Source: Pseudovibrio exalbescens DSM 16456 (GTDB lineage Bacteria > Pseudomonadota > Alphaproteobacteria > Rhizobiales > Stappiaceae). Taken from it: a stretch of 64,000 bases of DNA. The stretch lies in NCBI RefSeq assembly GCF_000422785.1, contig NZ_AUGS01000014.1, positions 1-64,000 on the forward strand. The letters are read 5' to 3'. Made by a program: the position numbers and the translations under genes. Below, piece after piece: positions 7,592 through 45,682 of the stretch (the stretch's first letter is position 1; each line of letters starts with the position of its first letter). Under the pieces are notes generated by a model. It had not been told where the DNA came from, ran no database searches, and was given only the letters and a program-made list of their open reading frames with translations.

Positions 7592-8011
7592 TCGCCACCC
7601 CACGAGTTGCAGTGAGCCCTGCCGATACCGTTCACCCGAAAGGGTTTCGGCGGAAGGTTCACCAAAGCATTCAGTTCTAAGGAACACCGCAGATTGGGTT
7701 GACGACGCATCCTCCCGTTTAGGCGTTGCCGTCTCCTCCCTTATGTGCGGATGTCAGGAATCTAGCATATCTATTTGAAATATATCGCTGTTTCTGGTGG
7801 GTGCGTGGTGGTCTGTGGATGGCTCAGCCAGTTGGTTCCCCTAGGTTATTAGGGAGGTGGCTCGTTTATGCTTGCTGGGTCAGTCTGTTAGACCCATCCT
7901 GAACAACCGTGGGTTTACGGGTTACCCATCAGACGGGTTTATCAAAACGGGCGGCCAGGGGAGGCGTGTACTCAAAAATTCGCCAATCATATTTAACGGG
8001 CGGGCGTGATC
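7592..8011. other. Non-coding stretch upstream of chitobiase and hydrolase genes
   Basis: A divergent intergenic region of about 420 bp. It contains two small inverted repeats, CCCTA/TAGGG (7839-7843 and 7850-7854) and TGGGTC/GACCCA (7876-7881 and 7891-7896). No gene is convincing. It should hold the promoters for both neighbours, but I cannot place them with confidence. Confidence 0.4.
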
Positions 8012-8866
8012 ATGGATAGGTTGGTTGTCTCGCATGGTGGTGGATGCCATCTGCGTTTGCTTGCCGGCAATGCAGACGGCCTGCGGAATGTGCTGGTGGT
8101 TGGCCGAAGCAATCGATCTTTTCGGTCCATTCAAATCGACCGGCTGGCCGCGCAGATGCGGGATTGGGGCTTTGCGGTTTGGCGACTGGAGCCGCAACCA
8201 ACGCCGCCCAAAGAGGGCGCTGCTATACCTCCCGGTTCTCATGGAAGTGCCTGCAGCTCGATGATGACGGCCATGTCGAGCGCGGTGAGCCGCTGTATAC
8301 CCAAGGTTTTTGGCTATTATCCGAGTTGGGCGGACTATCTGTCACCCAGCTATGCACAGGTGATCGAGAGAAGGGATGAGGTGCAGTCCATGCTGGATCA
8401 ATTCCCGGTCTCGGCGCGGTTTTTGTTATTGGGGCATTCTATGGGCGCGCGGGTTGGTACCTATCTGGATCGACAGTCCCGGGTGTCGGGCCATGTGGGG
8501 TTCGGCTACCCCTTCCAGCATCCGGAGGAAGGTCCAGCCCTGTCACGGGTTTATCATCTGCGCAAGCTGAAGGTGCCAACCTTGATCATTCAAGGGCGCA
8601 ACGATGCCTACGGCGGTGAAGAGGTCGCCAGGACGTACCGTTTCAACCCGTCGATCTCGTTTCTGTTTGTCGAGGACGACCATAGTTACAATTCAGCGTG
8701 TTCGAACCTGACATGGCAAATTACGACCCGTGTCGGGGCCTTCATTGCCGAAACGCAAGGCGGCCTGCCATGCGAACATTCATGCGGCCGCCCGGATGAT
8801 CAACCGGATCAACTGGTTGGAAAGGAGGGAAAGTCGAAATCCTGCCGCACCTTGGCTGTGTCATAG
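8012..8866 (+). CDS. Alpha/beta hydrolase of the KANL3/TEX30 type
   Basis: A 284-residue alpha/beta hydrolase. The nucleophile elbow is GHSMGARVG (serine near residue 143), followed by GFGYPFQHP. Next come an acid-site segment LIIQGRNDAYGG and a histidine in EDDHSYN. The GYPF and RNDxYG elements are what I associate with the KANL3/TEX30-like hydrolase family; its substrate is unknown. GTG at 8006 is an alternative start, but ATG at 8012 is preferred. The C-terminal 58 bp overlaps the 3' end of the convergent NTF2-like gene. The tail after residue 250 (polar, Cys- and Gly-rich) is unusual and may be unstructured. Confidence 0.7.
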   Translation: MDRLVVSHGGGCHLRLLAGNADGLRNVLVVGRSNRSFRSIQIDRLAAQMRDWGFAVWRLEPQPTPPKEGAAIPPGSHGSACSSMMTAMSSAVSRCIPKVFGYYPSWADYLSPSYAQVIERRDEVQSMLDQFPVSARFLLLGHSMGARVGTYLDRQSRVSGHVGFGYPFQHPEEGPALSRVYHLRKLKVPTLIIQGRNDAYGGEEVARTYRFNPSISFLFVEDDHSYNSACSNLTWQITTRVGAFIAETQGGLPCEHSCGRPDDQPDQLVGKEGKSKSCRTLAVS

Positions 8867-9234
8867 ATGATGGTGACTTCTTCGATCCTGTCGAGCGTGG
8901 GGTTGAGCCGGAAAACATTTACCAGATCGATGGTTTGCGGCAAGGACCCGGTGACCTGACGGTTATAGCGGGCATGGATTGAGGCGCGGGTTGGATTCGA
9001 CGGGCTTACCATGATGCTTTTGATGCGAATGGAGCGGCCGGTGATCTGCGTCAGGACGTAGGTGTAGAAGTCCTTTGCACGCTGCTCGTCAAAGATGGGA
9101 GATTGGACGACCGCCTCTTTGGTAAACAATTCCATGAGCCGGTCCAGATCGTTCCGTTCCAAGCGGTGAGTGTACTCTTCGCACAAGGCTTGTGCTTTCA
9201 TCAGGTCTTCAAGCTGCTGATCCGAGGACGTCAT
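8809..9234 (-). CDS. NTF2-like / SnoaL-like protein
   Basis: A 141-residue protein with the compact cone-shaped NTF2/SnoaL pattern: an N-terminal helix pair (LMKAQALCEEYTHRLERNDL), then FTKEAVVQSP, then a curved sheet ending VTIIYDTAKVRQDF. Members range from isomerases to ligand carriers, and nothing in the sequence identifies the ligand. The start at 9234 is chosen because AAGGAGG lies 6 bases upstream; an in-frame ATG 10 codons earlier lacks such a site. It converges on and overlaps the hydrolase gene. Confidence 0.7.
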   Translation of the reverse strand: MTSSDQQLEDLMKAQALCEEYTHRLERNDLDRLMELFTKEAVVQSPIFDEQRAKDFYTYVLTQITGRSIRIKSIMVSPSNPTRASIHARYNRQVTGSLPQTIDLVNVFRLNPTLDRIEEVTIIYDTAKVRQDFDFPSFPTS

Positions 9235-9451
9235 CCATGGCCTCCTTTTGAGTGACGGGCGCACCGCGCGCCGGGATTGAGACTATAAAGCGAGCATTGA
9301 CACCTTGGAACAACCTATTTTCAGGTGAGAAGGGCAAACGGCCTATCCGCGCCGGTGTTAAGCGTCCCTCAACGCCTTGTGTGATAAGCCTCTTTGGGTT
9401 TTCAAAAGACCTCTTCATTTATAGCTTGCATCAGATTTGCCGAGACCTGCC

Positions 9452-9908: not shown

Positions 9909-11177
9909 TTATTTCCCGAAGATCGGCAGCATTCCAGCAATTTCGAGGAATGCAACGATGAAGATCAGGATACCAAAGCCGAATACCAGTGCCTGACGGA
10001 GATCGCCGCCCTTAACCTGGTACATATCTGGGTTCCGCTTACGAACGATGCGAACCATGATGATCGGGGACAGAAGGCTGAAGATCACCAGAACCACACC
10101 AGCAAAGCCGATAGCGGTGATGAAGCCGTCTGGGTATACGATCGCCAGGATCACGGTCGGAAGGAATGCGATTGCGCCCGTCTTGAGCTTACCGATCCAG
10201 CAATGTTTGTTGAAGTTGCAAAGGTCTGCAATGTAGTCAAACAAGCTGAGGGATACACCCAGGAAGGACGTTGCAACGGCCATGTTACCAAACACCTGCA
10301 GGGCAGTGGAGATGTTGGAGCTCACACCACTGTCAGCCAGAGCTGCAAGGATGTTGCCGATGTTGCCGCCTTCAGCAATGATCTGCGGGAACTGTTCGCG
10401 TGGTACGTTTCCGAATACAGCCAGCATCCAGCAGAAGTAGAAGAAGCCTGCGATCAACATGGCGTAGATCAGTGCGCGGCCGGTCTTCTTCGGGTCAAGA
10501 CCCAGGTAGTTGGTGATCGTCGGAACCGTGATTTGGAAACCGAAGCTCGCTACCATGAAGCTGATTGTGTAGAAAACGTATGGGACCTGTTCGCTCATCG
10601 GCACCTGTGGGAACAGGATGTCAGCAGATGAGTTGGTGATCAGGCCGCCCAGGCTCATGACAAAGGTGATGACCATACCGCCGATGAGGATCGTGTTGAC
10701 CCGGTCAACGGCTGTGGCACCGACCATAACGATTGAAATCAGAACTGCAGCAAAGATGAAACTTGCCACCCCTGAGGACATCGTGATGCCATCGCCTACA
10801 AGCGACAAGGAGTAGGTAATAACGGAGCTACCGCCGGAAATGTACGCATATGTGAGAACGTAACACAAAAATGCGACTGACAAGCCGTTGATCAGTCGCC
10901 CGAAATTACCGATTGTGCCCTTGGCAATGCTGTCGTAGTTGGAATCCTTGGGGAAGTGGAGTGTTGCTTCCATGATGTACATAGACGCGCTATGCATGAT
11001 GTAAGCGACAACAACCATTACCACCAAGGCAATGGAGAACCAGACGCCAGCATTGGCGACCGGTAGTGAAAAGATGCCAGCCCCGACACCTGTACCTGCC
11101 GCAATAACGGCTGCTCCTAAAACAGTGCCCTCTTTTTTAGGAGCGGTACTCGTGGCTTTCGCAGTTGCATCGGTCAT
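9909..11177 (-). CDS. Aromatic amino acid permease (HAAAP family, tyrosine/tryptophan transporter)
   Basis: A 422-residue inner-membrane transporter of the hydroxy/aromatic amino acid permease family (TyrP/TnaB/Mtr). Its first helix carries AAGTGVGAGIFSLPVANAG, the unwound-helix motif of the family. About eleven membrane segments follow. The final one ends FILIFIVAFLEIAGMLPIF. It lies directly downstream of tyrosine phenol-lyase on the same strand, which argues for tyrosine (or possibly tryptophan) as substrate, imported with protons. A terminator-like hairpin lies in the 227-bp gap, so it may have its own promoter or be reached by read-through. Confidence 0.88.
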   Translation of the reverse strand: MTDATAKATSTAPKKEGTVLGAAVIAAGTGVGAGIFSLPVANAGVWFSIALVVMVVVAYIMHSASMYIMEATLHFPKDSNYDSIAKGTIGNFGRLINGLSVAFLCYVLTYAYISGGSSVITYSLSLVGDGITMSSGVASFIFAAVLISIVMVGATAVDRVNTILIGGMVITFVMSLGGLITNSSADILFPQVPMSEQVPYVFYTISFMVASFGFQITVPTITNYLGLDPKKTGRALIYAMLIAGFFYFCWMLAVFGNVPREQFPQIIAEGGNIGNILAALADSGVSSNISTALQVFGNMAVATSFLGVSLSLFDYIADLCNFNKHCWIGKLKTGAIAFLPTVILAIVYPDGFITAIGFAGVVLVIFSLLSPIIMVRIVRKRNPDMYQVKGGDLRQALVFGFGILIFIVAFLEIAGMLPIFGK

Positions 11178-11324
11178 CTAGAGCCTCCCAACTCTGCGTA
11201 GTGCAAAAAATGTTCCTATGAACAAATCGAGTTTCCGGTTTGAATAAGCACGAAACGCGTGAACGTCTTCATTTGGTTGGCCCCGGCTGCTCATGCCGCA
11301 GAAGGTCTCCCACCTTCTAATCAG

Positions 11325-11360
11325 AAAAGGAGAGAGGCTTTTCGGCCCCTCTCCCTTTTT
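11325..11360 (-). terminator. Rho-independent terminator after tyrosine phenol-lyase
   Basis: An A/G-rich arm at 11325-11337 pairs with a T/C-rich arm at 11346-11360 across a short loop (CTTTTCGG). On the minus strand the hairpin is followed by CTTTTC and lies about 45 bases beyond the tpl stop codon. It would end or attenuate transcription before the permease gene. Confidence 0.7.
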
Positions 11361-11404
11361 CAGGCCTTAGAAGTCGCCAGTTGTATCGGCTTGACTTGCA
11401 AGAC

Positions 11405-12808
<1,404 letters not shown>

Positions 12809-32765: not shown

Positions 32766-33233
32766 TTAGCCCATTACATGGGCGCTGATTGCCTCCTTCA
32801 GCGCTTGCGGGTTGACCGCAAACACCGCATTGGGGGCTCCGGCCGCAGCCCAAACCAGATCATGTGTGAGAAGAGACGCGTCCATGTACACAGGGATCGG
32901 CGAGAGGTGCCCTAGGGGAGCAACGCCACCGATTGCGAACCCGGTCACCTTGCGAACATGTCGAGCATCGGCGCGTGTGAGCGGTCCGCCGACGATTTGC
33001 GCGGCAGCCTCCAGATCAGCCTGACGATCTCCGGCAATGAGGAGCAGGACCAGTTCCTCGGTGTCTTCCCTCTGAAAAATGAGTGATTTGACGATCTGCC
33101 CGACGGTGCACTTGCAAGCTTTGGCAGCTTCTTCGGCTGTGCGTGTGCTCTCGGGCATGAGCGTGATGGTAATGTTGAGCCCAACTGCTGCGGCGGCCTC
33201 TGCGACGCGGTCTTTACTGCTTTGCTTCGCCAT
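32766..33233 (-). CDS. YbaK/EbsC-family aminoacyl-tRNA deacylase
   Basis: A 155-residue single-domain YbaK/ProX-like protein that probably hydrolyses mischarged aminoacyl-tRNAs in trans. Family elements are CKCTVGQIVKSLIFQ, LVLLLIAGDRQ, RKVTGFAIGGVAPLGH and the C-terminal VWAAAGAPNAVFAVNP. The invariant lysine is in IVKSL. Whether the substrate is Cys-tRNAPro or another cannot be read here. The ATG at 33233 follows GGGGGAAGAG and was preferred over one 5 codons upstream. Its 3' end meets the convergent gene with only 8 bp between. Confidence 0.88.
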   Translation of the reverse strand: MAKQSSKDRVAEAAAAVGLNITITLMPESTRTAEEAAKACKCTVGQIVKSLIFQREDTEELVLLLIAGDRQADLEAAAQIVGGPLTRADARHVRKVTGFAIGGVAPLGHLSPIPVYMDASLLTHDLVWAAAGAPNAVFAVNPQALKEAISAHVMG

Positions 33234-33325
33234 GCACTCTTCCCCCACTCCGGTTTGACCATGACTACTGAATAATCAGCGGCAGATGCGACCACAAGCC
33301 CGATTGGTTGAGATTATCGCAAGTT

Positions 33326-34600
33326 TTAAAAGGCCTCAGAGCGCCCCTCAGCGCTGCACCAGACAAGGAGTGCATAAAGAAGGGCCGTTCCAAGAGCGCT
33401 CCAGAAAGTGTAACCCACGGCAATACCCATCATGCCCCAGTGATTAACGGCAACTGGGGCCGTGGCTGCAGATCCGATGAGGCAAGCGACCATAACCAGA
33501 GATGGGGCACGGTGCTGTCCGTGCATGGCAAGCAGCGCTGAGGCTGGCCCGAACACACCTCGAAAGAAAATTACCGAGCACACCACGAGGAGCACCGAAA
33601 GAGCCTCTTCAAACGCAGGTCCAAACAGACCCAGCACCCATTCACCCAGAAGGGCGCAGCCGAAAAGAATCCCAAGGCCATAAAGCGCACCAAGGCCTTG
33701 CATCTGCAAAATGCCCTTTTTGGTGCTCAAGCCTTTGGTGTGGTCTTCATAGATCCGAGGCAATAGAAGCATGTAGAGGGCGCGCATCCCAAACCCGGCT
33801 AGGGAGCGCAGACGAAAGCAGATGTGCAGCATCGCAACTTGTCTTGCCGGCAACAGCAACAGCCCTGCAAGAAGGATCTGCACTTCGATAAAAAAGTCCC
33901 AAACCAGCGTGGTCACGACCCACGGTGGGGCGGAACGGCGCCACTCTTTCTTCTCCGAAAGATCGGGCACAGTGTTGCCTATCGGAATAAAACGGCGGAA
34001 GAACCATAGGCTTGTGAACAGTGCGACGCCATTGGCAACTGCATATACAACGAACAAGCCTGTCGCTCCGTTCGGCCAGCCGAAGGTTGCTGCCAATAGT
34101 AGCCCTGCAGTAAGGAGCAGAGGACGCAGGGCCACTTCGGGAAGTGCAGCCCGGATTTGCTGATCAAATGCCACCAACACCGCACCAAAGAACGTGACAG
34201 ATGCAATGCAATAGGCTGAGATCGCCAAGAGCGATGCAGTGACCCACAAACTGTCCCCCGAAAGAGGTGTGGCCCAGAAGAGATATGCAACGCCAAGCGG
34301 AAGTACCAGCACCGTCATCAGAGCCCTGAGCTGGCTTGTCTCCCGGTACAGGCCGTACAGCTTGGCGATGTGATCGGTTGTCTTGAACCGGGAGGACAGT
34401 ACCGTGGCAATGGACGCAAACCCAAGGCCAATGAGTTGGGCCATGACCGCGTTGGCCGCAAGCAGTACGGAGAAGAGGCCCAGCACCTCGCCAGACCACA
34501 CTCTGGCTATTACCAGATTGGCAGCGAACATCAACACCGAGCCCATAAGGCGCAGAGTGAAAAGCGAACCGAAACGCTGCAACAAAGTGATGAGGCTCAT
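33326..34600 (-). CDS. Polysaccharide biosynthesis flippase (Wzx-like)
   Basis: A 424-residue multispanning protein of the MOP superfamily with about twelve hydrophobic helices. It opens with SLFTLRLMGSVLMFAANLVIARVWSG, typical of Polysacc_synt flippases that move lipid-linked glycans across the inner membrane. It is the last gene of a five-gene operon; its ATG lies 3 bases after the stop of the FemAB-like gene. The partners suggest that it exports an amino-acid- or acyl-modified glycan, but no glycosyltransferase is encoded beside it. The substrate is unknown. Confidence 0.85.
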   Translation of the reverse strand: MSLITLLQRFGSLFTLRLMGSVLMFAANLVIARVWSGEVLGLFSVLLAANAVMAQLIGLGFASIATVLSSRFKTTDHIAKLYGLYRETSQLRALMTVLVLPLGVAYLFWATPLSGDSLWVTASLLAISAYCIASVTFFGAVLVAFDQQIRAALPEVALRPLLLTAGLLLAATFGWPNGATGLFVVYAVANGVALFTSLWFFRRFIPIGNTVPDLSEKKEWRRSAPPWVVTTLVWDFFIEVQILLAGLLLLPARQVAMLHICFRLRSLAGFGMRALYMLLLPRIYEDHTKGLSTKKGILQMQGLGALYGLGILFGCALLGEWVLGLFGPAFEEALSVLLVVCSVIFFRGVFGPASALLAMHGQHRAPSLVMVACLIGSAATAPVAVNHWGMMGIAVGYTFWSALGTALLYALLVWCSAEGRSEAF

Positions 34601-34603
34601 TAT

Positions 34604-35719
34604 CTAGCGCCCAATTCGCGATCTGATGACAGACAGAGCTCGATCTGACCGCTGCTTGGCCCGTCGCAAACCAAAAATGCCCTTTGCTATAAGGGCGGCC
34701 TTAATGCCAGCACTGAAGTGATGGTCCTCCGGGCACTCAAGCAACGCGCCCGTTTTGCCAATGAAACCGCTTTTGAACTGATGAAGGCCTGCATCAAGGT
34801 CGTTGCCGCCAAGGTCATACCATTTGACCTTGGGGTCGGCGCAAAGCTGTGCCACCACCGCCCAGTGGAGCGCATAACCAGCGCGCAATGACAATGCATC
34901 GTCGCTTGTTGCACCGTAAAGATAAGCAGCGGTGTCGCCGCAGTGGTGGATGATACCTGCAGCGCAGAGCTTTCCCTTGTGGGCCACCTGCACAAACATG
35001 GGTTGTAGTGTTGCCGGTGCGGCCTTGCAGAACGCGGGCAATGTGGCAATGGCCGAGTGGTCTGCGAAGCCTTTGCGAGACAGCATTTCTTTATAAAGCG
35101 TCATGAAGGGTGCAAGGCCCTCTTCTGCCCTGGTTACATGAATGCTAAAGGGGTTCTTTTCGGCCTTCTTTAGATTGTAGCGCCATTTCTGCGAAAGCGA
35201 TTGGCGCAGGTCGTAAAGACTCTGATCGACGTTCACAAAGTAGCGCGCCGGTGCAGGGAGCTTTTCCCCTCGCTCGAAGCCAAGCCGCACCAACGTCTCA
35301 ACAGTACGATCCGTCAAAAAGGGCTCTGCCCGTGGCATCACGGTGAGATGCAGACCACGCTGGTCACACAGCTCTTCCCGAAGCGCGGTGAGGATGGCGG
35401 CAAGCCGCGCTGGGTCTGCGGTTTCACCCGGTTTGCGCCAAACCGGCCCCCATTTCATGATCGCTAGGCCACTGCCAATTACCGGCATTTTCAAGAGGAC
35501 CACGCCCGCGCCGCCGAGGGTTGTTTCGCCCTCTACGACCTTAAAAAAGGTGCAACGTTCTGCGCCCCAACGGGCCTTGAGAAACGCAGAGGACTGCTCA
35601 TGCAAGGCATCTTCGAAGGTGCCAAGAAGGGCATCCCATTCGGATGGACAGACCTCTGACAGTTCTATGGCACTGTCCTGAGGAAGCGCCTGCACGGTTT
35701 GCAAGGCAACGGAACTCAT
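34604..35719 (-). CDS. FemAB-like GNAT-fold acyl/aminoacyl transferase
   Basis: A 371-residue protein with two GNAT-like lobes as in FemX/FemA, the tRNA-dependent enzymes that add amino acids to peptidoglycan precursors. Features include LYDLRQSLSQKWRYNLKKAEKNPFSI, which resembles the substrate-proximal region, and the late segment YLYGATSDDALSLRAGYALHWAVVAQLCADPKVKWYDLGGND, the family hallmark in the second lobe. Its ATG overlaps the stop codon of the ATP-grasp gene (ATGA), so translation is coupled. It may attach an amino acid or acyl group to a glycan or lipid carrier, but the acceptor is unknown. Confidence 0.82.
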   Translation of the reverse strand: MSSVALQTVQALPQDSAIELSEVCPSEWDALLGTFEDALHEQSSAFLKARWGAERCTFFKVVEGETTLGGAGVVLLKMPVIGSGLAIMKWGPVWRKPGETADPARLAAILTALREELCDQRGLHLTVMPRAEPFLTDRTVETLVRLGFERGEKLPAPARYFVNVDQSLYDLRQSLSQKWRYNLKKAEKNPFSIHVTRAEEGLAPFMTLYKEMLSRKGFADHSAIATLPAFCKAAPATLQPMFVQVAHKGKLCAAGIIHHCGDTAAYLYGATSDDALSLRAGYALHWAVVAQLCADPKVKWYDLGGNDLDAGLHQFKSGFIGKTGALLECPEDHHFSAGIKAALIAKGIFGLRRAKQRSDRALSVIRSRIGR

Positions 35720-36963
35720 GAACGTGCCTCCCGATCAGTTTCGGTTGTCTGTCTCTGTCGTCGAAGCGCATGCTTTAATCGTCGTTTGATGCCGGATAGC
35801 GAAGGCAACATGCGCCAACATGTGACTAAAGCCGGCAGGGGGTCTTTCCAGCTCCAGATCATGTGAAGATTTCCGCGAAATACACTGGCCAGGGCGGTGC
35901 CAAAGCGCTTCAGCATGGTGCCAATGCCGATCTCACCCCGCATCTGTGCCACAATGGCTGCCAGCACCTCCCCCGACACCCAGAGGTAGCGGATGCCTCT
36001 GCGCCCCTCAACGGGCTGCGTATCCACCGGCACTCCCAGTGCTTTTTCCATGAGCAAGGGGCCGAGTGCCAGGCCCGCTCTCTCTGGCACATTCAGGTTG
36101 CCAGCAATACGGGCGTTGATTTCCAGAAAACTGATTGCTCCCGTGGTCTCATCGACCAGATACTGGGCGCACCCGATGCCGTCATAGGCCAAATCAGCCA
36201 CAAGGCGCTCGGTGTAGCTGCGCAAAGGCATTAACGGTGTAATGGTCTCGCCCTCAACAGCGAGCCCCGTGCCATCCGGGCTGTCCGTGCGCAGGACCAC
36301 CGCCTGTACATGACGGGTCAGCTTGCCGTTTTCAGCAGCAAAGTAAAGGTTGTAGCGCCGCCCACTAAAGTGCTGTTGCAGTACCAATGCGCTGGTTCTG
36401 TTCTGCCAGAGCGTGAGCACATCGTCCAGCGCCTCGGGGCTGGTCAAGGTAACGGCTTTCTTGCCGCCAAGTCGCTTCGTGGAGTGTTCAGGCCGTACAA
36501 CCAGCGGGAAACCAAGCTGAGCTGCGGCGTCTCGCAAGTCTTGCTCGCAATGGGCAAGGGCAAAGGGCGCACACGGCACATCGAGGCGCAGGCACTGCTG
36601 CATCATGCCAACCTTGTCCAGACAGGCAGAGACAATTTCCGGGTCCATCATGGCAATAGGGGCAAGTGCTTCCACTCGTCTGCGGTGGCGCACGAAGCAG
36701 GTAACGAACTCCTCAGAGACTGGATAGAGCAGCGTCACCTGATTTTGATCTACATACCTTCCAAGCGCGGCTAGAAATGCATCTTCGTCTTTTTCAAGTG
36801 GCGGGTGGTCCCAGCTTTCGCGGCAAAACCGGCTGAACTCGGCACCGCCATCACTACCTTCCAACCCCACAATCATGTGGTGCCCGGCAGCGCCCAGTGT
36901 GCGCACCAGCGTTAACGTTGGCCGGTAATTGCCAAGTAGCAGAATCCGTTGTTTCTCAATCAT
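35716..36963 (-). CDS. ATP-grasp carboxylate-amine ligase
   Basis: A 415-residue ATP-grasp enzyme that should join a carboxylate and an amine via an acyl phosphate. The N-terminal Rossmann-like lobe begins RILLLGNYRPTLTLVRTLGAAG. The ATP-binding region includes GFPLVVRPEHS and GGKKAVTLTS. The metal and phosphate ligands are in CAQYLVDETTGAISFLEINARI, with glutamate and N-x-R as in carbamoyl phosphate synthase-like and PylC-like ligases. The start at 36963 overlaps the stop of the membrane-protein gene by 8 bp. With the FemAB-like gene next to it, amide bond formation on a cell-surface molecule is a reasonable inference. The substrate is unknown. Confidence 0.86.
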   Translation of the reverse strand: MIEKQRILLLGNYRPTLTLVRTLGAAGHHMIVGLEGSDGGAEFSRFCRESWDHPPLEKDEDAFLAALGRYVDQNQVTLLYPVSEEFVTCFVRHRRRVEALAPIAMMDPEIVSACLDKVGMMQQCLRLDVPCAPFALAHCEQDLRDAAAQLGFPLVVRPEHSTKRLGGKKAVTLTSPEALDDVLTLWQNRTSALVLQQHFSGRRYNLYFAAENGKLTRHVQAVVLRTDSPDGTGLAVEGETITPLMPLRSYTERLVADLAYDGIGCAQYLVDETTGAISFLEINARIAGNLNVPERAGLALGPLLMEKALGVPVDTQPVEGRRGIRYLWVSGEVLAAIVAQMRGEIGIGTMLKRFGTALASVFRGNLHMIWSWKDPLPALVTCWRMLPSLSGIKRRLKHALRRQRQTTETDREARS

Positions 36964-37642
36964 CTGCGTCCTCTGCTTTGGTTTGGAAAAGATCCACAAG
37001 CAACAGATAAACCGTCATCAGGTGAAAGCCCGCCCAACACACAATGCCGAAGAACTTGGCGCTGTCCTCGAGATAAACCAGTCCCGGTGAGAGGCTGTGA
37101 AACACCTGGTCCACGCCAAGAGACAGTGCAAGACCGAACGCGCCCAGACCGAGCACCCACCACTCCTGCGAGAAGATCAATCGCCAGTTCATTGCCCCAT
37201 AAAGCAGCGCCAGCGCAGCGGTTGCAGCAAGGACCACGGGTTGCGGCAGGCCAAGAGAAGGTAATACCAACTCGTGCAACAGGAATGCGTCGTCGAGCGC
37301 CAACCATCCGGTCAGAACGCAGGCGGATGCAGTAAAGCGCAGGGCCTGACGCGGCGCTTTTCCCTTGAAAAGACAGAGGGCGGCGATGAGGCACACCGCT
37401 GCCGTGCCCGACCACAGCATGATGCCCAGATTGGAGATGAAGCCATAGTAGACATGGCAGCAATCACCGGAGAGTTCCGCTGCTGTGAGTGCATCAAGGA
37501 ACATCCATTTGGGCTCCGCCCACGGCTGCAGGAAGACTGCGCCAAGCAATGAGCCGGGAAAACCAATAAGCAGTCCTGCAAAAAGCAGTTTTGCCCTGCT
37601 TGGAAGAGGCCCCCAAAAGCCCGAGGAAAGCGGCAGGTTCAT
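36956..37642 (-). CDS. Uncharacterised polytopic membrane protein
   Basis: A 228-residue inner-membrane protein with about six helices. A notable charged motif lies inside the hydrophobic stretch near residue 115: LALDDAFLLHELVLP, with D-D and H-E spaced as in membrane-embedded metal sites. Further polar residues include DQVFH near residue 180. I recall such DD-x4-HE proteins beside polysaccharide genes but know no function. It is embedded in the operon: its ATG overlaps the upstream stop (ATGA) and its own stop overlaps the ATP-grasp start. Confidence 0.75.
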   Translation of the reverse strand: MNLPLSSGFWGPLPSRAKLLFAGLLIGFPGSLLGAVFLQPWAEPKWMFLDALTAAELSGDCCHVYYGFISNLGIMLWSGTAAVCLIAALCLFKGKAPRQALRFTASACVLTGWLALDDAFLLHELVLPSLGLPQPVVLAATAALALLYGAMNWRLIFSQEWWVLGLGAFGLALSLGVDQVFHSLSPGLVYLEDSAKFFGIVCWAGFHLMTVYLLLVDLFQTKAEDADD

Positions 37643-38895
37643 GAGCACCTCTTATTGTCTGAAAAGAAGCGAATTAACCGGCCACGCCTTCTGTTTGCCG
37701 CGTGCAAGAACGCCATAATGCGCGGTCGTTGCAGAGCCGCACGCTTGCCGCCTTGGATCAGGTGGTGGAGCTTCTTCAGCGCTTTGCCACGGAAGGTTAG
37801 AGGAACCATGCTGTCTTTCAAAATGGTGTGATCTCGGGCCCATTCGCGCTTGTAGGGTTCATCTCCGCGCATCAGGTCATAACTTGTCATGCCAGCGCGC
37901 GTGGCTAGTTCCATGGTTTGAACAAGAAGAAGCTGCCCGGGGGAGTGTTCGGAATGAGCCTCTTTATCATAGGCATTTATAAGCACGGAAAAGTCTCTGT
38001 TCTGGGTGAGGCACAGAAATCCCGCTATCATCTGGTCCGCAACGAACAGACCATAGAGGCGTACGGATGAGCAGCTTTCTGGCTTGCCGACCACCGTCTC
38101 CAACTGGCGTGTCAAAATGGTTTTCTCACCCCTTGTCGTGCGAAAGGGATTTCTGCTGCCGCGCTCATCAAGTTGAGTGGTCTTCCATGTCAACATGAGG
38201 TCGAGGGCCTTCAGCCGATCGTCAGTTCGCCGAAGCCCTTTGAAGCGAACAGTCCCATGGGTTTTCAGTTTCCGCAGCTTTTGGCTAAGGCGCCTCCGGG
38301 TATTCTTGCCTCGCAGTGACGCGTAGAAGTGCTGCCATGGCCCTGCTAGTGAAACATGGTGGGCAATGCCCGTATCCTGATAACAGCCAGTTTGTGCAAA
38401 TGGATTCTGACTACCCCGGACAAGGGCTGGCTGGCTGCGTAGTAATAAGGCATGAACGCCCCCTACATGCTGAGAAGTCCGGCGCAAGATTTCCGAGCAA
38501 GCCTCTGGTGACAACTTTTTCTGAAGATGCGCCGCTAGGAGAGGGACGCAGTAGTCATTCACATCATCGCCCTGCCAGGCCAGCACACTGTGCCCAGCAA
38601 ACTTCCGTTTGTAGAGCGGTAGTAGCCCCACCAGGTCGGGGCCCTCATGGAGAAAAACAAACAAGCTGCATGCGTTTCGGGATGTACCGCCCGTGTGAAA
38701 CCAAGCATCCTTCCAGCGTGTATCTTGAAACGGGCAAGTTTGGGACCGTGCCTGCATGGCTTGCCAGTCGCTGCGCACATCTGCCCAGTTTTGACGGATA
38801 GACACATTGAGGTTTTCTACGGTTCCCAGGGAAACCGCAATCTGGTGTGTTCCAGTCTGTGGTGAGGCAATACAGCCTTCATCCAGCGTCATCAT
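37639..38895 (-). CDS. GNAT-family acyltransferase (CelD/BioF2-like)
   Basis: A 418-residue protein of the Acetyltransf_6 (CelD/BcsL, PF13480-like) type, found in polysaccharide clusters. The recognisable region is WQHFYASLRGKNTRRRLSQ-KLRKL in the middle, then a long acceptor lobe ending SPGQLLLVQTMELATRAGMTSYDLMRGDEPYKREWA, the classic C-terminal signature. The first about 40 residues are poorly defined. ATG 38895 is my choice, with 38892 and TTG 38934 possible. It is the first gene of the five-gene operon and probably transfers an acyl group to a sugar or carrier-linked intermediate. Confidence 0.8.
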   Translation of the reverse strand: MMTLDEGCIASPQTGTHQIAVSLGTVENLNVSIRQNWADVRSDWQAMQARSQTCPFQDTRWKDAWFHTGGTSRNACSLFVFLHEGPDLVGLLPLYKRKFAGHSVLAWQGDDVNDYCVPLLAAHLQKKLSPEACSEILRRTSQHVGGVHALLLRSQPALVRGSQNPFAQTGCYQDTGIAHHVSLAGPWQHFYASLRGKNTRRRLSQKLRKLKTHGTVRFKGLRRTDDRLKALDLMLTWKTTQLDERGSRNPFRTTRGEKTILTRQLETVVGKPESCSSVRLYGLFVADQMIAGFLCLTQNRDFSVLINAYDKEAHSEHSPGQLLLVQTMELATRAGMTSYDLMRGDEPYKREWARDHTILKDSMVPLTFRGKALKKLHHLIQGGKRAALQRPRIMAFLHAANRRRGRLIRFFSDNKRCS

Positions 38896-39958: not shown

Positions 39959-40159
39959 GTCTTGTCCTTTCATGAGGGCTTGCGACCTTTGTGGGGTAAC
40001 GTGTTGCAGAACTGGCAGCCAATCCGGAAAAAAACGCAGATTTGTTTTTCCGAACTGGTTTGACAAAAGGGTGAGAGCGGGTTTGCGGTGTTCTTGCTTT
40101 TTCCTTTTCAAGATCTCCAGTTGGGGCTAGCCTTGCCACCCTTGGGAGGGATCATCGAA

Positions 40160-40834
40160 ATGACAGCTGAAACAATGAACTGGATTGACCGCTTCGAAGG
40201 GCTTTCAAAACTGGAGGCCCCGATAAGGGATATTCTTACCAATCGCAGCACCGTTGTTTCGGTGCCCAAGGATACGATCATTTTTGGGCCGGGCAAGGCA
40301 CCTGATCATCTTCTTCTTCTGCTGCAGGGTGTTGTCAGAGTGCAGCAACTTTCTGAGAACGGCCGGGAAATTGTATTGTACCGGGTACATGCGGGCGAAA
40401 GCTGCGTGCTGACAACGGCCTGTTTGCTTGCCTATGAAGACTACTCTGCGGAAGGAATTGCGGAAACGGATGTTCAGGCGGCAGCCATACCTCGTGCCGT
40501 GTTTGATGATCTGATTGCCCAATCCGAAACCTTCAGGCGCTTTGTGTTTTCGGCCTACTCGCGTCGGATCACCGATCTGTTCATGGTGATTGAAGAAATC
40601 GCTTTTCAGCGGGTCGACATTCGCCTTGCTCACAAGCTGCTGCAACTGGCCGGAACTGGTGGCGCGATCAGCGCGACCCATCAACAAATGGCGGCCGAAC
40701 TCGGTACTGCAAGGGAAGTCGTTTCACGCCAGCTCCGTGAGTTTCAACGCCGAGACTGGATAACCCAATCTCGCGGAGCAATAGAGATCATCGATCGCGC
40801 GGCACTTGAGAAGTTGGCCGCGACCGAGTCATGA
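40160..40834 (+). CDS. Crp/Fnr-family regulator with two cysteines in the sensor domain
   Basis: A 224-residue regulator with an N-terminal cyclic-nucleotide-like beta-roll and a C-terminal winged HTH (ATHQQMAAELGTAREVVSRQLREFQRRDW). The N-terminal cysteine cluster of FNR (4Fe-4S) is absent. Instead the beta-roll contains C82 and C88 in GESCVLTTACLL. It precedes a sulfide-oxidation gene set on the same strand. Control of those genes, possibly through thiol chemistry at C82/C88, is inferred from position. Start 40160 is supported by GGGAGGG upstream. Confidence 0.86.
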   Translation: MTAETMNWIDRFEGLSKLEAPIRDILTNRSTVVSVPKDTIIFGPGKAPDHLLLLLQGVVRVQQLSENGREIVLYRVHAGESCVLTTACLLAYEDYSAEGIAETDVQAAAIPRAVFDDLIAQSETFRRFVFSAYSRRITDLFMVIEEIAFQRVDIRLAHKLLQLAGTGGAISATHQQMAAELGTAREVVSRQLREFQRRDWITQSRGAIEIIDRAALEKLAATES

Positions 40835-40972
40835 GGCGATAGGTCAAGTTCAAAGACCTGTTCTCGTTAATTCCTGCCAAAATCCATCATAATTCGATGT
40901 TTGGTGACTTCGTCACTGAAGCGATCTTCCCAAAGGGCTATCGGTATCAAACCGTATTTGGAGGATTGCCAG

Positions 40973-41185
40973 ATGACTACGAATGTTGGAACCATTGATC
41001 GACTCGTTCGCGCCCTGATTGGTATTGTGCTGATCGTGGCGCCGTTCACCAGTGCACTCGCCCTGTTTGCCGAGCCTTTGTATCGCTACGGTTCGGTTGC
41101 GCTTGGCTGCATCATGCTTGTGGTGGCAGCAACGCGCTTCTGTCCGCTTTATGCCCTGTTCGGGTTCAAAACCTGCCGGACCTGA
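40973..41185 (+). CDS. DUF2892 small membrane protein
   Basis: A 70-residue protein with two hydrophobic helices (GTIDRLVRALIGIVLIVAPF and YGSVALGCIMLVVAATRFCPLY), ending LFGFKTCRT. This is the YgaP transmembrane-domain family, often fused to or next to rhodanese and sulfur-handling genes. The cysteines in RFCPLY and KTCRT are conserved in the family as I remember it and may carry sulfane sulfur. It sits 42 bp before the persulfide dioxygenase gene. A ribosome-binding site TTGGAGG precedes the ATG. Confidence 0.85.
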   Translation: MTTNVGTIDRLVRALIGIVLIVAPFTSALALFAEPLYRYGSVALGCIMLVVAATRFCPLYALFGFKTCRT

Positions 41186-41227
41186 TCAAGCTTACCCGCT
41201 AGCCCACGAGAACCACGGGAGGGACTC

Positions 41228-42112
41228 ATGACTACCTATCCTGTCGACATGACTGTAAAGCCGCAGGTGAAGGCGTTTTTCGACTCTGCAACCAACACCA
41301 TCAGCTATGTGGTCAAGGACCCAGAGTCCCGCGCCTGTGCTGTGGTGGACTCGGTGATGGACATTGACTATGCCGCTGGTCGCATTTCCTACGAAAGCGC
41401 GGATGCGATCATCGCCCATATTCAGGAAAATGATCTGAAGCTGGAGTGGCTGATCGAAACCCACGTCCACGCCGATCACTTGTCGGGTGCGCCGTATATT
41501 CAAGAGAAACTGGGTGGCAAGATCGGCATTGGTGAGAAGATCAAGGTCGTTCAGGACACCTTTGGCAAGGTGTTCAATGAAGGCACCGAGTTTCAGCGCG
41601 ACGGCAGCCAGTTCGATCAGCTGTTTACCGATGGAGACACCTACACCATTGGCGGCATGACTGCGTTCGCCATGCACACCCCGGGCCACACCCCTGCATG
41701 TATGGTTCATGTCATTGGTGATGCAGCGTTTGTTGGCGATACCCTGTTCATGCCGGATGGTGGATCGGCCCGCGCCGACTTCCCCGGTGGGGATGCGGGT
41801 GAGCTTTACGACTCCATTCAGAAAGTCTTGGCGCTGCCCGATGCCATGCGCCTGTTCATGTGCCACGACTACGGGCCCAACGGCCGTGAGATCCAATGGG
41901 AAACCACCGTTGGCGATGAAAAGGAACATAACATCCACGTCGGTGGAGGGCGTTCTCGTGAAGATTTCATCAAGTTCCGAACCGAGCGTGATGCGCAGCT
42001 GAGCATGCCAAAGCTGATCATTCCTTCCCTTCAGGTGAACATGCGAGCCGGAGACGTTCCCAAGGACAAAGACGGCAACCCGATGTTGAAGGTGCCGATC
42101 AACAAACTGTAG
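41228..42112 (+). CDS. Persulfide dioxygenase-type metallo-beta-lactamase protein
   Basis: A 294-residue metallo-beta-lactamase fold protein of the ETHE1/Blh group. The metal site is H79-x-H81-x-D83-H84 (THVHADHLSG). Further ligands are in HTPGHTPACMVHVIGDAAFVGDTLF and FMCHDYGP, as in non-haem iron persulfide dioxygenases. It should oxidise glutathione persulfide to sulfite. It lies between DUF2892 and the DUF442-SQR fusion, so product and substrate flow from SQR to this enzyme is expected. The ATG follows GGGAGGGACTC. Confidence 0.9.
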   Translation: MTTYPVDMTVKPQVKAFFDSATNTISYVVKDPESRACAVVDSVMDIDYAAGRISYESADAIIAHIQENDLKLEWLIETHVHADHLSGAPYIQEKLGGKIGIGEKIKVVQDTFGKVFNEGTEFQRDGSQFDQLFTDGDTYTIGGMTAFAMHTPGHTPACMVHVIGDAAFVGDTLFMPDGGSARADFPGGDAGELYDSIQKVLALPDAMRLFMCHDYGPNGREIQWETTVGDEKEHNIHVGGGRSREDFIKFRTERDAQLSMPKLIIPSLQVNMRAGDVPKDKDGNPMLKVPINKL

Positions 42113-42152
42113 GCCACACGCCAAAACAGAAAAATGAGGGGGAGGAGACCAC

Positions 42153-43841
42153 ATGGAAATCAAGAGCATCTCGGCCAAGCTGTCTGTCAGCGGCCAGATT
42201 TCACCCGATGATGTGCAACAGATTGCCGACATGGGCTTCCGCAGCCTGATTTGCAATCGGCCGGATGGGGAAGGTTCTGATCAGCCTGGGTTTGACGAAA
42301 TTGCAGCGGCGGCAAAGCAGTTTGGGCTTGAAGTGCGATACCAGCCGGTGGTTTCCGGAAAGGTACGGGACGAAGATGCGAGCGAGTTCGGCAAGATCAT
42401 GCAGGAGGTGCCAAAACCGGCCTTTGCATACTGCCGAACCGGCACGCGCTGCGCCACCTTGTGGTCTCTTAGCCAAGCTGAAAAGCTGAGTGTTGCCGAT
42501 ATTTTGGCGGCAACAAAAGCGGCTGGTTATGACATGGCGGGTGTTGTCCGGCGCATTGCCAATGGCGGTAAAACGCCAACGGATCGGCCGGATGCCTCTT
42601 ATGATGTTGTGATCATCGGCGGTGGTGCGGCCGGCATCGCCGTTGCGGCCAGCCTGAAATCCCGTCAGTCTGATCTTGAGATTGCCGTGATTGATCCGGC
42701 AGACATTCACTATTACCAACCGGGTTGGACAATGGTGGGTGGCGGCATCTTCAAGCCGGCGCAAACCGCAAAGACCATGGGATCGTTGATCCCCAAGGGA
42801 GTTCATTGGCTCAAATCAGCTGTCGCGGCGTTCGAGCCGCAAGATAATGCCGTTATTCTGGACGGCTGCCGCGTTGTCAAATACGACCGTCTGGTTGTGT
42901 GTCCGGGACTGAAGCTGGACTGGCACAAGGTGGAAGGGCTGGTTGAAACGCTTGGCAAGTACGGCGTCACCTCCAACTATCGCTATGACCTTGCGCCCTA
43001 CACATGGCAGTTGGTGCAAGGCCTGAAGAAGGGAAGGGCGATCTTCACACAGCCCCCCATGCCCATCAAATGCGCCGGGGCTCCTCAAAAAGCCATGTAC
43101 CTATCTGCGGACCATTGGCGGCGTGAAGGCGTATTGCAGGACATCGACATTCATTTCTGCAATGCGGGAGGTGTTCTGTTCGGTGTCAAGGACTACGTTC
43201 CTGCTCTCGAAAAGTACATCGACCTGTACGGTGCCAATCTGGATTTCTTCCATAATCTGGTTGCCATCGACGGGCCTGCCAAAAAGGCGTGGTTTGACGT
43301 CAAGAAGCCGGACCAACCGGAAGAACGCGTCGAGATGTCATTTGACATGATTCACGTTTGTCCTCCGCAAACTGCGCCTGATTTCATTCGCGTTTCTCCT
43401 CTGGCAGATGCCGCCGGATGGGTCGATGTGGATCAGGCTACCCTGCGCCACAAGACCTACGAGAATATCTGGTCACTGGGAGATGTCATGAATGCTCCCA
43501 ATGCCAAGACAGCGGCTGCTGCCCGCAAACAGGCACCGGTCGTTGCCGAGAACATCATCGCCGATATCAAAGGCCAATCGCCCGTTGCTCAATATGATGG
43601 CTATGGCTCATGCCCTCTCACGGTTGAGCGAGGAAAGATTGTTCTGGCCGAATTCGGTTATGGCGGTACGCTGCTCCCCAGCTTTCCCTCATGGCTGGTG
43701 AACGGCAAGAAACCCACCCGCCTTGCGTGGCTTTTGAAAGAGCAGATCCTGCCGCCGATCTACTGGAAAGCCATGCTGCGCGGCAAGGAATGGCTGGCGA
43801 AACCGGAGAAGGTGAGCGCTTCTCCTGCGTCCAACCAATAA
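42153..43841 (+). CDS. Fusion of DUF442 phosphatase-like/sulfurtransferase domain and type II sulfide:quinone oxidoreductase
   Basis: A 562-residue two-part protein. Residues 1-110 are DUF442 (TIGR01244-like), with C94 in the CRTGTR loop, likely a persulfide carrier. Residues 150-562 are a flavin disulfide reductase-type SQR: FAD motif IIGGGAAGIAVA near 155, HYYQPGWTMVGGG, C307 in MPIKCAGAPQKAM, and a later Cys in GSCPLTVERGKIVLAEF, both hallmarks of human SQOR-like (type II) enzymes. It should oxidise sulfide at the membrane and pass electrons to quinone. The upstream dioxygenase gene is 40 bp away, so they are cotranscribed. Confidence 0.92.
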   Translation: MEIKSISAKLSVSGQISPDDVQQIADMGFRSLICNRPDGEGSDQPGFDEIAAAAKQFGLEVRYQPVVSGKVRDEDASEFGKIMQEVPKPAFAYCRTGTRCATLWSLSQAEKLSVADILAATKAAGYDMAGVVRRIANGGKTPTDRPDASYDVVIIGGGAAGIAVAASLKSRQSDLEIAVIDPADIHYYQPGWTMVGGGIFKPAQTAKTMGSLIPKGVHWLKSAVAAFEPQDNAVILDGCRVVKYDRLVVCPGLKLDWHKVEGLVETLGKYGVTSNYRYDLAPYTWQLVQGLKKGRAIFTQPPMPIKCAGAPQKAMYLSADHWRREGVLQDIDIHFCNAGGVLFGVKDYVPALEKYIDLYGANLDFFHNLVAIDGPAKKAWFDVKKPDQPEERVEMSFDMIHVCPPQTAPDFIRVSPLADAAGWVDVDQATLRHKTYENIWSLGDVMNAPNAKTAAAARKQAPVVAENIIADIKGQSPVAQYDGYGSCPLTVERGKIVLAEFGYGGTLLPSFPSWLVNGKKPTRLAWLLKEQILPPIYWKAMLRGKEWLAKPEKVSASPASNQ

Positions 43842-43930
43842 CCCATGCCTTGGGTTCTACCTGATGGGAGACTGGCAGGCACGACAGCGCCTGCCAGCCT
43901 TCTTCGCTTCATGCACATAAAGGCTCCGCA

Positions 43931-45682
43931 ATGATTTCCTCCATGCTGCGTCGCTACATTCCTGTTTTCGATTGGGGCAGGACCTACAACAAGCACCAGT
44001 TTTCCAATGACATGATCGCCGCGATCATCGTCACCATCATGCTGATACCCCAGTCCCTGGCCTATGCCCTGTTGGCCGGGTTGCCGCCAGAGATGGGGCT
44101 ATACGCTTCTATTCTGCCCATCGTGCTTTACGCGATCTTTGGCACCAGTCGTGCGCTTGCAGTTGGACCGGTGGCGGTGGTCTCGTTGATGACCGCAGCC
44201 GCCATTGGACAAGTCGCGGAGGCAGGCAGCATGGGCTATGCCATGGCCGCGTTGACATTGGCCATGCTGTCCGGTGCCATGTTGTTGATGATGGGCGTTT
44301 TTAAACTCGGTTTTCTGGCTAACTTCCTGTCCCATCCTGTCATCGCCGGATTTATTACTGCCTCGGGGGTGCTGATTGCAGCCAGCCAGCTCAAGCACAT
44401 TCTCGGCGTGGACGCGCATGGCCACACCCTTTGGGAGATAGTTGTTTCGTTGGTCCGGCATTTGCCGGAAACCAATCCTGTCACGCTTGTTATTGGTGTC
44501 GCCGCGACCCTCTTTTTGTTCTGGGTTCGCAAGGGTTTGAAACCATTGCTGAAGCGCCTTGGGCTTGGCCCGCGTCCGGCAGACGTCATAACCAAGGCGG
44601 GTCCTGTTGCTGCCGTTGTTGCAACAACGGTCGTGGTTTGGGCACTGGGTTTGGATCAGCAACAGGTGGCAATTGTGGGCGAAGTGCCCCAGAGCTTGCC
44701 GCCGCTGACATTACCGTCGTTTTCGCTTGATCTGATGACGACATTGGCTGTTCCTGCCCTTCTGGTCTCCATTATTGGTTTTGTGGAGTCGGTGTCCGTG
44801 GCGCAAACCTTGGCAGCGAAAAAACGGCAACGCATCGATCCGGACCAGGAGCTGATCGGTTTGGGGGCTGCAAACCTTGGTGCCGCGTTTACAGGCGGAT
44901 ATCCTGTTACCGGCGGGTTTGCGCGTTCTGTGGTGAATTTTGATGCTGGCGCAGAAACACCTGCTGCAGGGGCATTCACGGCCGTGGGTCTGGCGATTGC
45001 GGCTGTTGCCTTGACGCCATTGATTTTCTACCTGCCCAAGGCAACGCTGGCTGCAACGATCATCGTTGCGGTGCTTTCACTGGTAGACTTCAGCATTCTC
45101 ACCCGTACATGGGGGTATTCCCGCAAGGACTTCACGGCAGTTGCAGCGACCATCATCCTGACACTAGGGTTCGGTGTCGAAGTCGGGGTTTCCGCTGGGG
45201 TTGCTCTGTCTGTGCTGCTGTTTTTGTTCAAGACCTCCAGGCCGCATATCGCCGAGGTGGGGCTTGTGCCGGGAACCGAGCACTTCCGCAATATCAATCG
45301 GCACAAGGTGCTCACAAATCCTGCGTTGTTGACCATTCGCATTGATGAAAGCCTGTATTTTGCCAATGCGCGGTTCCTCGAAGACTATGTATACGATCGG
45401 GTTGTGGGGGACGATGCGCTTAAACACGTCGTGTTCATGTGTTCTGCTGTGAACGAGGTGGACATGAGCGCTCTTGAATCCTTGGAGGCAATCAACCATC
45501 GCCTCTCGGACATGGGTTTGAAATTGCATCTTTCTGAGGTCAAGGGGCCGGTGATGGATCGTTTGAAACGCTCACATTTTCTGGAGGAGTTGAGCGGAGA
45601 GGTGTTTCTGAGCCAATATCACGCGCAGGCCAAACTGGCTCCGGTTGAGGACGCGCCGCAACCCATAAGCTCAGCAATATGA
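43931..45682 (+). CDS. SulP-family inorganic anion transporter with STAS domain
   Basis: A 583-residue transporter. The membrane domain begins at about residue 25 and contains the SulP signature PQSLAYALLAGLPPEMGLYASILP. Another family stretch is GAANLGAAFTGGYPVTGGFARSVVNFDAGAETP. The C-terminal STAS domain covers about residues 445-555 (LLTIRIDESLYFANARFLEDYV). Members carry sulfate or other anions such as bicarbonate. As the last gene of the sulfide module it may export sulfite or sulfate, but bicarbonate or uptake cannot be excluded. It starts 89 bp after the SQR fusion. Confidence 0.88.
   Translation: MISSMLRRYIPVFDWGRTYNKHQFSNDMIAAIIVTIMLIPQSLAYALLAGLPPEMGLYASILPIVLYAIFGTSRALAVGPVAVVSLMTAAAIGQVAEAGSMGYAMAALTLAMLSGAMLLMMGVFKLGFLANFLSHPVIAGFITASGVLIAASQLKHILGVDAHGHTLWEIVVSLVRHLPETNPVTLVIGVAATLFLFWVRKGLKPLLKRLGLGPRPADVITKAGPVAAVVATTVVVWALGLDQQQVAIVGEVPQSLPPLTLPSFSLDLMTTLAVPALLVSIIGFVESVSVAQTLAAKKRQRIDPDQELIGLGAANLGAAFTGGYPVTGGFARSVVNFDAGAETPAAGAFTAVGLAIAAVALTPLIFYLPKATLAATIIVAVLSLVDFSILTRTWGYSRKDFTAVAATIILTLGFGVEVGVSAGVALSVLLFLFKTSRPHIAEVGLVPGTEHFRNINRHKVLTNPALLTIRIDESLYFANARFLEDYVYDRVVGDDALKHVVFMCSAVNEVDMSALESLEAINHRLSDMGLKLHLSEVKGPVMDRLKRSHFLEELSGEVFLSQYHAQAKLAPVEDAPQPISSAI

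Follow-up and report, generated by a model that had tools for sequence, protein, structure and literature searches.

A patchily distributed five-gene cassette of Pseudovibrio exalbescens that may make and export an amino-acid-decorated, membrane-attached molecule

The window analysed here is a 64,000-nucleotide stretch of the Pseudovibrio exalbescens DSM 16456 genome (contig NZ_AUGS01000014.1, positions 1 to 64,000), and it contains a compact run of five minus-strand open reading frames, g1 to g5, that extends from position 38895 to 33326. In other genomes these genes are conserved together and reshuffled, a fusion joins g1 to g3 in two cases, and the active sites of g3 and g4 are kept. Sequence comparison gives good support to a joint function of the five, in which amide or aminoacyl chemistry is followed by flipping across the membrane: conservation, two fusions of g1 and g3 in opposite orders, and retained catalytic residues all point the same way. 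Our tentative reading, to which we give slightly less than an even chance, is that the cassette is a self-contained, patchily distributed unit for the synthesis and export of a single small molecule, attached to the membrane and decorated with amino acids. A first-pass annotation, made from the letters of the window, had proposed that an envelope glycan or lipid is decorated with amino acids and exported; the decoration and export agree with our results, and the choice between glycan and lipid is not settled by them.

The five open reading frames, their coordinates and their overlaps were verified on the minus strand as that annotation had given them. The first gene, g1 (37639..38895, 418 residues), encodes a CelD-like GNAT of the Acetyltransf_6 family (PF13480, 82.9 bits, cut-off 22) and shares an ATGA overlap (37642/37639) with g2 (36956..37642, 228 residues), which encodes a multi-helix membrane protein with a DDxxxxHE motif. 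An 8-bp overlap (36963/36956, ATGATTGA) joins g2 to g3 (35716..36963, 415 residues), a carbamoyl-phosphate-synthase-like ATP-grasp ligase (PF02786, 32 bits, cut-off 19.8). A second ATGA overlap (35719/35716) leads into g4 (34604..35719, 371 residues), a FemABX-type double-GNAT transferase (PF02388, 51.4 bits, cut-off 24), whose stop at 34604 is separated by a 3-bp gap from the start of g5 at 34600. The last gene, g5 (33326..34600, 424 residues), encodes a probable Wzx-like flippase of the MOP superfamily; its PF01943 score of 17.1 bits lies below the cut-off of 28.2.

Profiles of g2 (three rows) and g3 (five rows) were run against 397 genomes from the window's order, and g2 matches were retained at E <= 0.001 and g3 matches at E <= 1e-30. 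Genomes are labelled G, the window's own being G000, and loci L. The g2 profile matched 34 genomes and the g3 profile 40, and the g3 matches listed for the order all reach 2.3e-109 or better, which marks a discrete family. Both genes are found in 30 genomes spread over 14 family groups (Fisher p ~3e-32, relatedness ignored), and their co-occurrence and shared loci are beyond chance. Four g2-positive genomes have no family-level g3: G050 is 67% complete and carries g2 at a contig end, and the remaining three (G229, G248 and G352) have distant g2 relatives and no cassette. Conversely, g3 is found without g2 in ten genomes, of which five carry g3-g4-g5, one (G234) carries g3-g5 plus a different GNAT, and the remaining four, which belong to family group f5, lack both g4 and g5. 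This stand-alone g3 of f5 is a separate use of the same ligase family. In f5 the ATP-grasp gene adjoins a PrpF-type isomerase gene, sometimes as a tandem pair (L116:10198-11343); the PrpF neighbour was recognised by Pfam in L116 and by eye, from similar protein starts, in L014 and L118.

The distribution of the cassette is patchy. In a sample of the phylum g2 matched 4 of 398 genomes, three of them from the order and including the window's own, and in a sample of the class g3 matched 5 of 337 genomes at E <= 1e-20, again counting the window's own. Two genomes outside the order, G771 and G889 (loci L134 and L135), have a reduced g2-g3-g5 set only. Within the window's genus a close g3 is present in 2 of the 16 genomes searched, the window's own included (100 and 76% identical), and G012 of this genus has a 46% identical g3 relative inside a g3-g4-g5 set. 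Scans of viral contigs returned no relatives of g2 or g3. Plasmid records gave 36 ATP-grasp matches, the 20 listed all being below 27% identity, and the cassette was present in none of three plasmid regions inspected, from Halorussus, Haloferax and Miltoncostaea. The cassette has a GC content of 0.53-0.58, similar to the surrounding DNA, so that a recent acquisition is not visible from its composition.

Loci were annotated with profiles whose own members lie in some of the loci to which they were then applied, at bit thresholds that we set ourselves: 80 (g1), 90 (g2), 280 (g3), 100 (g4) and 150 (g5). Among 56 fetched loci, 45 carry g3, accompanied by g5 in 34, g4 in 32, g2 in 27 and g1 in 16. 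Eleven g3 loci have no g5, including four truncated by contig ends (L058, L070, L073, L129) and the five stand-alone g3 loci of f5 (L014, L116, L118, L119, L120). The genes g2, g3, g4 and g5 stand together in 21 complete loci, a count that leaves out loci truncated at contig ends (L058, L061, L070, L073, L074, L076, L128 and L129 being among these). Together with the co-occurrence of g2 and g3, this bears out the proposal of the first-pass annotation that the five genes form one set. The five-gene order is conserved elsewhere, yet the exact order of the window, g1-g2-g3-g4-g5, holds in just 9 of the 21 loci; the others are arranged as g3-g4-g5-g2 (five), g2-g3-g4-g5 (four), g2-g4-g5-g3 (two) or with g2 on the opposite strand (one). 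A more distant GNAT is placed divergently beside the cassette in L056 and L063.

Two loci encode g1 and g3 as one protein. The L070 fusion (811 residues) has the ligase at 20-414 followed by the GNAT at 423-793, and the L127 fusion (854 residues, from a sequence with some undetermined bases) has the GNAT at 26-417 followed by the ligase at 445-840. Each domain is near full length in both proteins, and the opposite domain orders indicate two separate fusion events. These fusions are the strongest sign that g1 and g3 probably act in sequence. Over these 21 complete loci the distances of the four shared genes also correlate (Mantel r between 0.59 and 0.91, with none of 2000 permutations reaching such values), a correlation that shared host descent could produce in part. 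In L083 (G111:C122) two short g2 fragments are found between g1 and g3 at about 7863-8057, as if g2 had been mostly deleted and the rest of the cassette retained.

Catalytic residues are kept in g3 and g4. In g3, Q267, E281, N283 and R285 are invariant in 43 of 43 relatives, in a Q-E-N-R layout that we take to be the metal/ATP site of carbamoyl-phosphate synthase (CarB). CarB was the best match of the g3 profile in the PDB, and a weak similarity to D-Ala-D-Ala ligase was seen as well. FemX (1NE9) is hit at 4.7e-7 by a profile built from four g4 proteins, and in the profile alignment F315-K316 of g4 falls on F304-K305 of FemX. Lys305 of FemX and Lys329/Phe328 of DhpH-C are important for tRNA-dependent aminoacyl transfer (PMC12945691). 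The Phe-Lys pair is kept in all 31 g4 relatives that have letters there, two of the 33 aligned being gapped. By contrast, Arg211 and Tyr215 of FemX, which presumably contact UDP-MurNAc-pentapeptide and which we regard as a feature of FemX itself and not of the whole FemABX family, correspond to S222 and T226 in g4 and to S/D/E/T and T/L/A/H in its relatives. With the pair kept and these presumed contacts lost, the transfer chemistry of g4 looks kept and the peptidoglycan acceptor does not. Against TIGR03019, g4 scored 20.8 bits, far under the cut-off of 260.35.

No Pfam or NCBIfam family matches g2 at E <= 1, which leaves it an orphan membrane family. The DDxxxxHE motif that the first-pass annotation had pointed out is D117-D118-x4-H123-E124; its two Asp and its His never vary in an alignment of 22 members, and its Glu is almost invariant. 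The invariant residues of the alignment are D50, G67, S70, G73, W77, D117, D118, H123, S174, D178, E192, K196, G199, I200 and W203. A model built from two g2 sequences is all helical, with a predicted local distance difference test score (pLDDT) of 72.9 and a predicted template modelling score of 0.69, and is usable as a guide only; the other four models had pLDDT values below 48. A separate two-sequence model of g3, at a pLDDT of 37.5, was not used. Foldseek returned no matches of the g2 model at E <= 0.001. A structural comparison placed rhodopsin-like bundles at the top (best Z 11.4, root mean square deviation 3.4, 158 aligned residues), with a Z of about 11 that falls within the helical-bundle background range. 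Ceramidase and adiponectin-receptor chains are absent among the best 50 structure matches, which excludes nothing.

Two candidate relationships of g2 were tried. That to alkaline ceramidase (PF05875) was rejected, as g2 reached 2.2% over 35 columns in hhalign against five class members. A link to the Lipocone superfamily was prompted by the accessible part of PMC12419801, where the cpCone group is described with an Asp six residues before the H2 His, and also with an H3 Glu, a second Glu three residues on and an H4 Asp. In g2, D117 and H123 are likewise six apart and both invariant, and a Glu-x2-Glu pair is not evident by eye. Against the sole Lipocone family compared, one of 30 (Wok/DUF2238, of a different clade from cpCone), the assignment was unsupported at 0.2%, and the Pfam matches of the 22 g2 members include none of the Lipocone Pfam names given in that part of PMC12419801. 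Distant g2 relatives also occur apart from the other cassette genes, in L077, L080, L081 and L082; their neighbours include an aldehyde dehydrogenase (L077), a GT9-like protein (L081) and a dCTP deaminase (L082). Since they sit by unrelated genes, the g2 family is wider than the cassette.

Five g5 proteins were scanned: four match PF01943 only and one matches nothing, and neither MurJ nor a drug-exporter family was found among them. Four relatives of the window's g5 score 35.0 (L012), 34.2 (L013), 21.2 (L054) and no match (L079) against the PF01943 cut-off. The presence of g5 in the reduced sets of L134 and L135 argues for a substrate of its own.

From these observations we propose the following sequence of steps. 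On the cytoplasmic side g3 would spend ATP to join a carboxylate to an amine, and g1 would add an acyl or aminoacyl cap to the product of g3, a step to which the fusions point. The g4 transferase would take an aminoacyl group from a donor, most likely aminoacyl-tRNA, and pass it to an acceptor other than the usual peptidoglycan precursor. The membrane protein g2 may act on the lipid part, by head-group transfer or cleavage, with its conserved Asp, His, Glu and Lys residues, and g5 would then move the product to the periplasmic side. Candidate acceptors are a phospholipid, a polyprenyl-linked sugar or another lipid. Because its own flippase travels with the cassette, mostly apart from the glycosyltransferases listed, a product of its own is favoured over decoration of a resident polysaccharide. 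A narrower version, a so far undescribed pathway of Alphaproteobacteria in which the product is an exported aminoacylated (peptidyl) non-glycan membrane lipid, its head group is built on the lipid through amide bonds made by the ATP-dependent ligase and the FemABX-type enzyme, g2 represents a new head-group enzyme family and g5 is a dedicated Wzx-like flippase, appears unlikely to us, if well short of negligible.

The surroundings of the cassette bear directly on the nature of the acceptor. Seventeen open reading frames of the window around it (22857-49738), 16 of which have a family, were scanned without finding a glycosyltransferase, a polymerase or an initiating transferase, and the cassette is not accompanied there by the glycosyltransferases and polymerase of a holdfast (hfs) locus. 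In the window the cassette thus lies outside any capsule or holdfast locus. The first-pass annotation had seen no such enzyme in the operon itself and concluded that the scaffold comes from elsewhere, a point that these results do not settle. Among the matches listed, GT2/GT4 glycosyltransferases (PF00534/PF00535) lie within 10 kb in only 2 of 24 genomes that carry all or part of the cassette, G111 and G366. Clustering of the neighbours in 37 loci, fetched before the other 19, gave no non-cassette cluster in more than eight loci and no recurrent cell-wall family, most neighbours being without a family assignment. A link to the XrtA/PEP-CTERM exopolysaccharide system was rejected from a comparison of exosortase (PF09721) over 49 genomes of our choosing. 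Exosortase has no match in G000 and shows no association with the cassette: among same-order genomes it occurs in 2 of the 24 that carry the cassette wholly or partly and in 1 of the 22 that lack it. It is absent from both reduced genomes, G771 and G889, and present in G763, which has a distant g3 relative only. The outcomes that the first-pass annotation had named as counting against its proposal, homologous clusters within a described capsule or holdfast locus and genes not conserved together, were not found.

Several points weigh against our reading. The conserved Lys of g4 is no proof of tRNA use, and the role given to g2 is drawn from conserved polar residues only. The known substrates of g5-like flippases are polyprenyl-linked glycans, and no enzyme of the cassette would make one. 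Both g1 and g4 are absent in L134 and L135, and g1 or g2 elsewhere, which means that the chemistry varies to some extent. The cassette of G366 has a listed GT2 match about 7 kb away, and in G274 (L063) a sugar-nucleotide dehydratase/epimerase-type gene adjoins its GNAT. The cassette of G111 (L083) faces, and directly adjoins, a cluster with a nucleotide-sugar dehydrogenase, an acetyltransferase, an aminotransferase and glycosyltransferases, one match among those listed being about 7 kb away. More distantly, an exosortase-A exopolysaccharide cluster (L137, G763) contains a g3 relative that scores 103 bits, and the Halorussus plasmid has a g3 relative of 25.6% identity with an oligosaccharide flippase about 3 kb away and a polysaccharide deacetylase in the vicinity. 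In L015 (G030:C65) a distant ATP-grasp gene (8105-9346) and a distant flippase relative (10407-11771), of 22-23% identity, are separated by about 1 kb; the same genome also carries the cassette in full. The L015 and Halorussus neighbours suggest that ATP-grasp ligases of this kind may be paired with flippases more widely. In L137, a 659-residue open reading frame encodes both a distant g3-like ATP-grasp and a low-molecular-weight tyrosine phosphatase domain.

In the main alternative, which is the glycan reading of the first-pass annotation, glycosyltransferases encoded elsewhere would make a polyprenyl-linked repeat, the cassette would attach amino acids to one of its sugars, a uronic or an amino sugar, and g5 would flip the decorated repeat of a surface polysaccharide. 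The Wzx-like character of the g5 relatives is in line with this, as are the distant g3 relatives of L137 and Halorussus, and G111 is a case that fits a glycan acceptor. Precedents exist: glucuronic acid of the Campylobacter jejuni capsule is amidated by an ATP-grasp enzyme, the C-terminal domain of Cj1438 (PMC11800379), the FemX-like GNAT HfsK is proposed to modify the Caulobacter holdfast polysaccharide (PMC5362036), and the Pap polysaccharide cluster of Pseudomonas fluorescens holds a FemX-like GNAT and a flippase (PMC7716237). However, glycosyltransferases are rare near the cassette among the matches listed, no non-cassette cluster is shared by more than eight of 37 loci, and exosortase shows no association. 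The polysaccharide cluster of G111 itself also seems to have a second flippase, a 423-residue protein with a flippase-like N-terminal sequence by eye and no NCBIfam match. We therefore regard glycan decoration as a serious alternative, yet on balance a doubtful one.

A soluble, secreted natural product containing amino acids, with g5 as an exporter and not a lipid flippase, is improbable. The FemX-like enzymes VlmA, DhpH, PacB and Orf11 do make small aminoacylated natural products (PMC12945691), and the cassette lacks a lipid-carrier enzyme. Set against this are the conservation of the polytopic g2 and the g5 matches to PF01943, four in five proteins. Weakest is a role in peptidoglycan synthesis, with the ligase and the FemAB enzyme extending the stem peptides of lipid II by amino acids and g5 as a dedicated flippase for the modified lipid II: FemABX enzymes do work on peptidoglycan precursors and g3 is weakly D-Ala-D-Ala ligase-like, but the presumed pentapeptide contacts are replaced and variable in g4, none of the five g5 proteins scanned matches a MurJ family, and among the neighbours with a family assignment no cell-wall gene family was seen repeatedly beside the cassette, which makes this very improbable.

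The preferred reading, a membrane-attached conjugate with its own flippase, has partial parallels among known systems. In MprF-type systems of tRNA-dependent lipid aminoacylation one fused protein carries out both aminoacyl transfer to a membrane molecule and flipping; these are not known to use an ATP-grasp ligase, and their transferase and flippase families differ from those of the cassette. With the FemABX transferases (Weissella viridescens FemX; DhpH-C, PacB, VlmA) g4 shares the family profile and the catalytic Phe-Lys pair, and its predicted double-GNAT layout is expected from the family; it differs in lacking the Arg211 and Tyr215 counterparts and in being grouped with an ATP-grasp ligase, a GNAT and a flippase. 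Cj1438C resembles g3 as an ATP-grasp amide ligase acting on an exported envelope molecule, but it is TupA-like and fused to a capsule glycosyltransferase (PMC11800379), whereas g3 is of the carbamoyl-phosphate-synthase-like kind and is separate from glycosyltransferases in the window. HfsK, set beside g4 by description, is a FemX-like GNAT for an exported alphaproteobacterial envelope polymer. It works with holdfast polysaccharide synthesis, and the accessible text of PMC5362036 describes no ATP-grasp or g2-type partner.

The closest system found is the five-gene operon of the YfiM-1 Lipocone, with its acyl-CoA ligase/GNAT/ATP-grasp protein, for which a membrane head-group enzyme is predicted to act with the GNAT and ATP-grasp domains in aminoacylating a lipid head group (PMC12419801, accessible part). 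Its own genes are thioredoxin, DTW and PssA, and no FemAB protein or flippase is named in that part, which also mentions tRNA-dependent lipid aminoacylation as a process. The first-pass annotation knew of no named pathway with this exact set; we likewise found no description of the five genes in the open-access literature searched, as far as its texts were accessible, the 2009 amidoligase survey of Iyer and colleagues lying outside it. The cassette thus combines known enzyme kinds in an undescribed way and adds one orphan membrane family, priority not being proven. If our reading is true, many Alphaproteobacteria share a portable pathway for an exported amino-acid conjugate, which would bring together a FemABX-type transferase working apart from peptidoglycan synthesis, a membrane enzyme of an orphan family and a dedicated flippase. 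The compact five-gene set ties the uncharacterised g2 family to defined partners.

Around the cassette in the window, an aldo/keto reductase gene lies upstream of g1, 229 bases away. A promoter and terminator scan gave no signal exceeding that of shuffled sequences, and a tRNA and Rfam search of the window returned no matches. Beginning 77 bases past g5, a minus-strand gene (32766-33248) encodes a protein with an aminoacyl-tRNA editing domain (PF04073, 91.8 bits). It was considered as a sixth member of the cassette and rejected, since it has no relative among the open reading frames of the other 55 fetched loci. On the other side, a plus-strand gene group (40136-45679) encodes a Crp-type regulator, a YgaP-like membrane protein, a metallo-beta-lactamase-fold protein, a fusion of BLH_phosphatase with a pyridine nucleotide-disulphide oxidoreductase, and a sulfate permease, all lying together; this is perhaps a sulfide-oxidation module.

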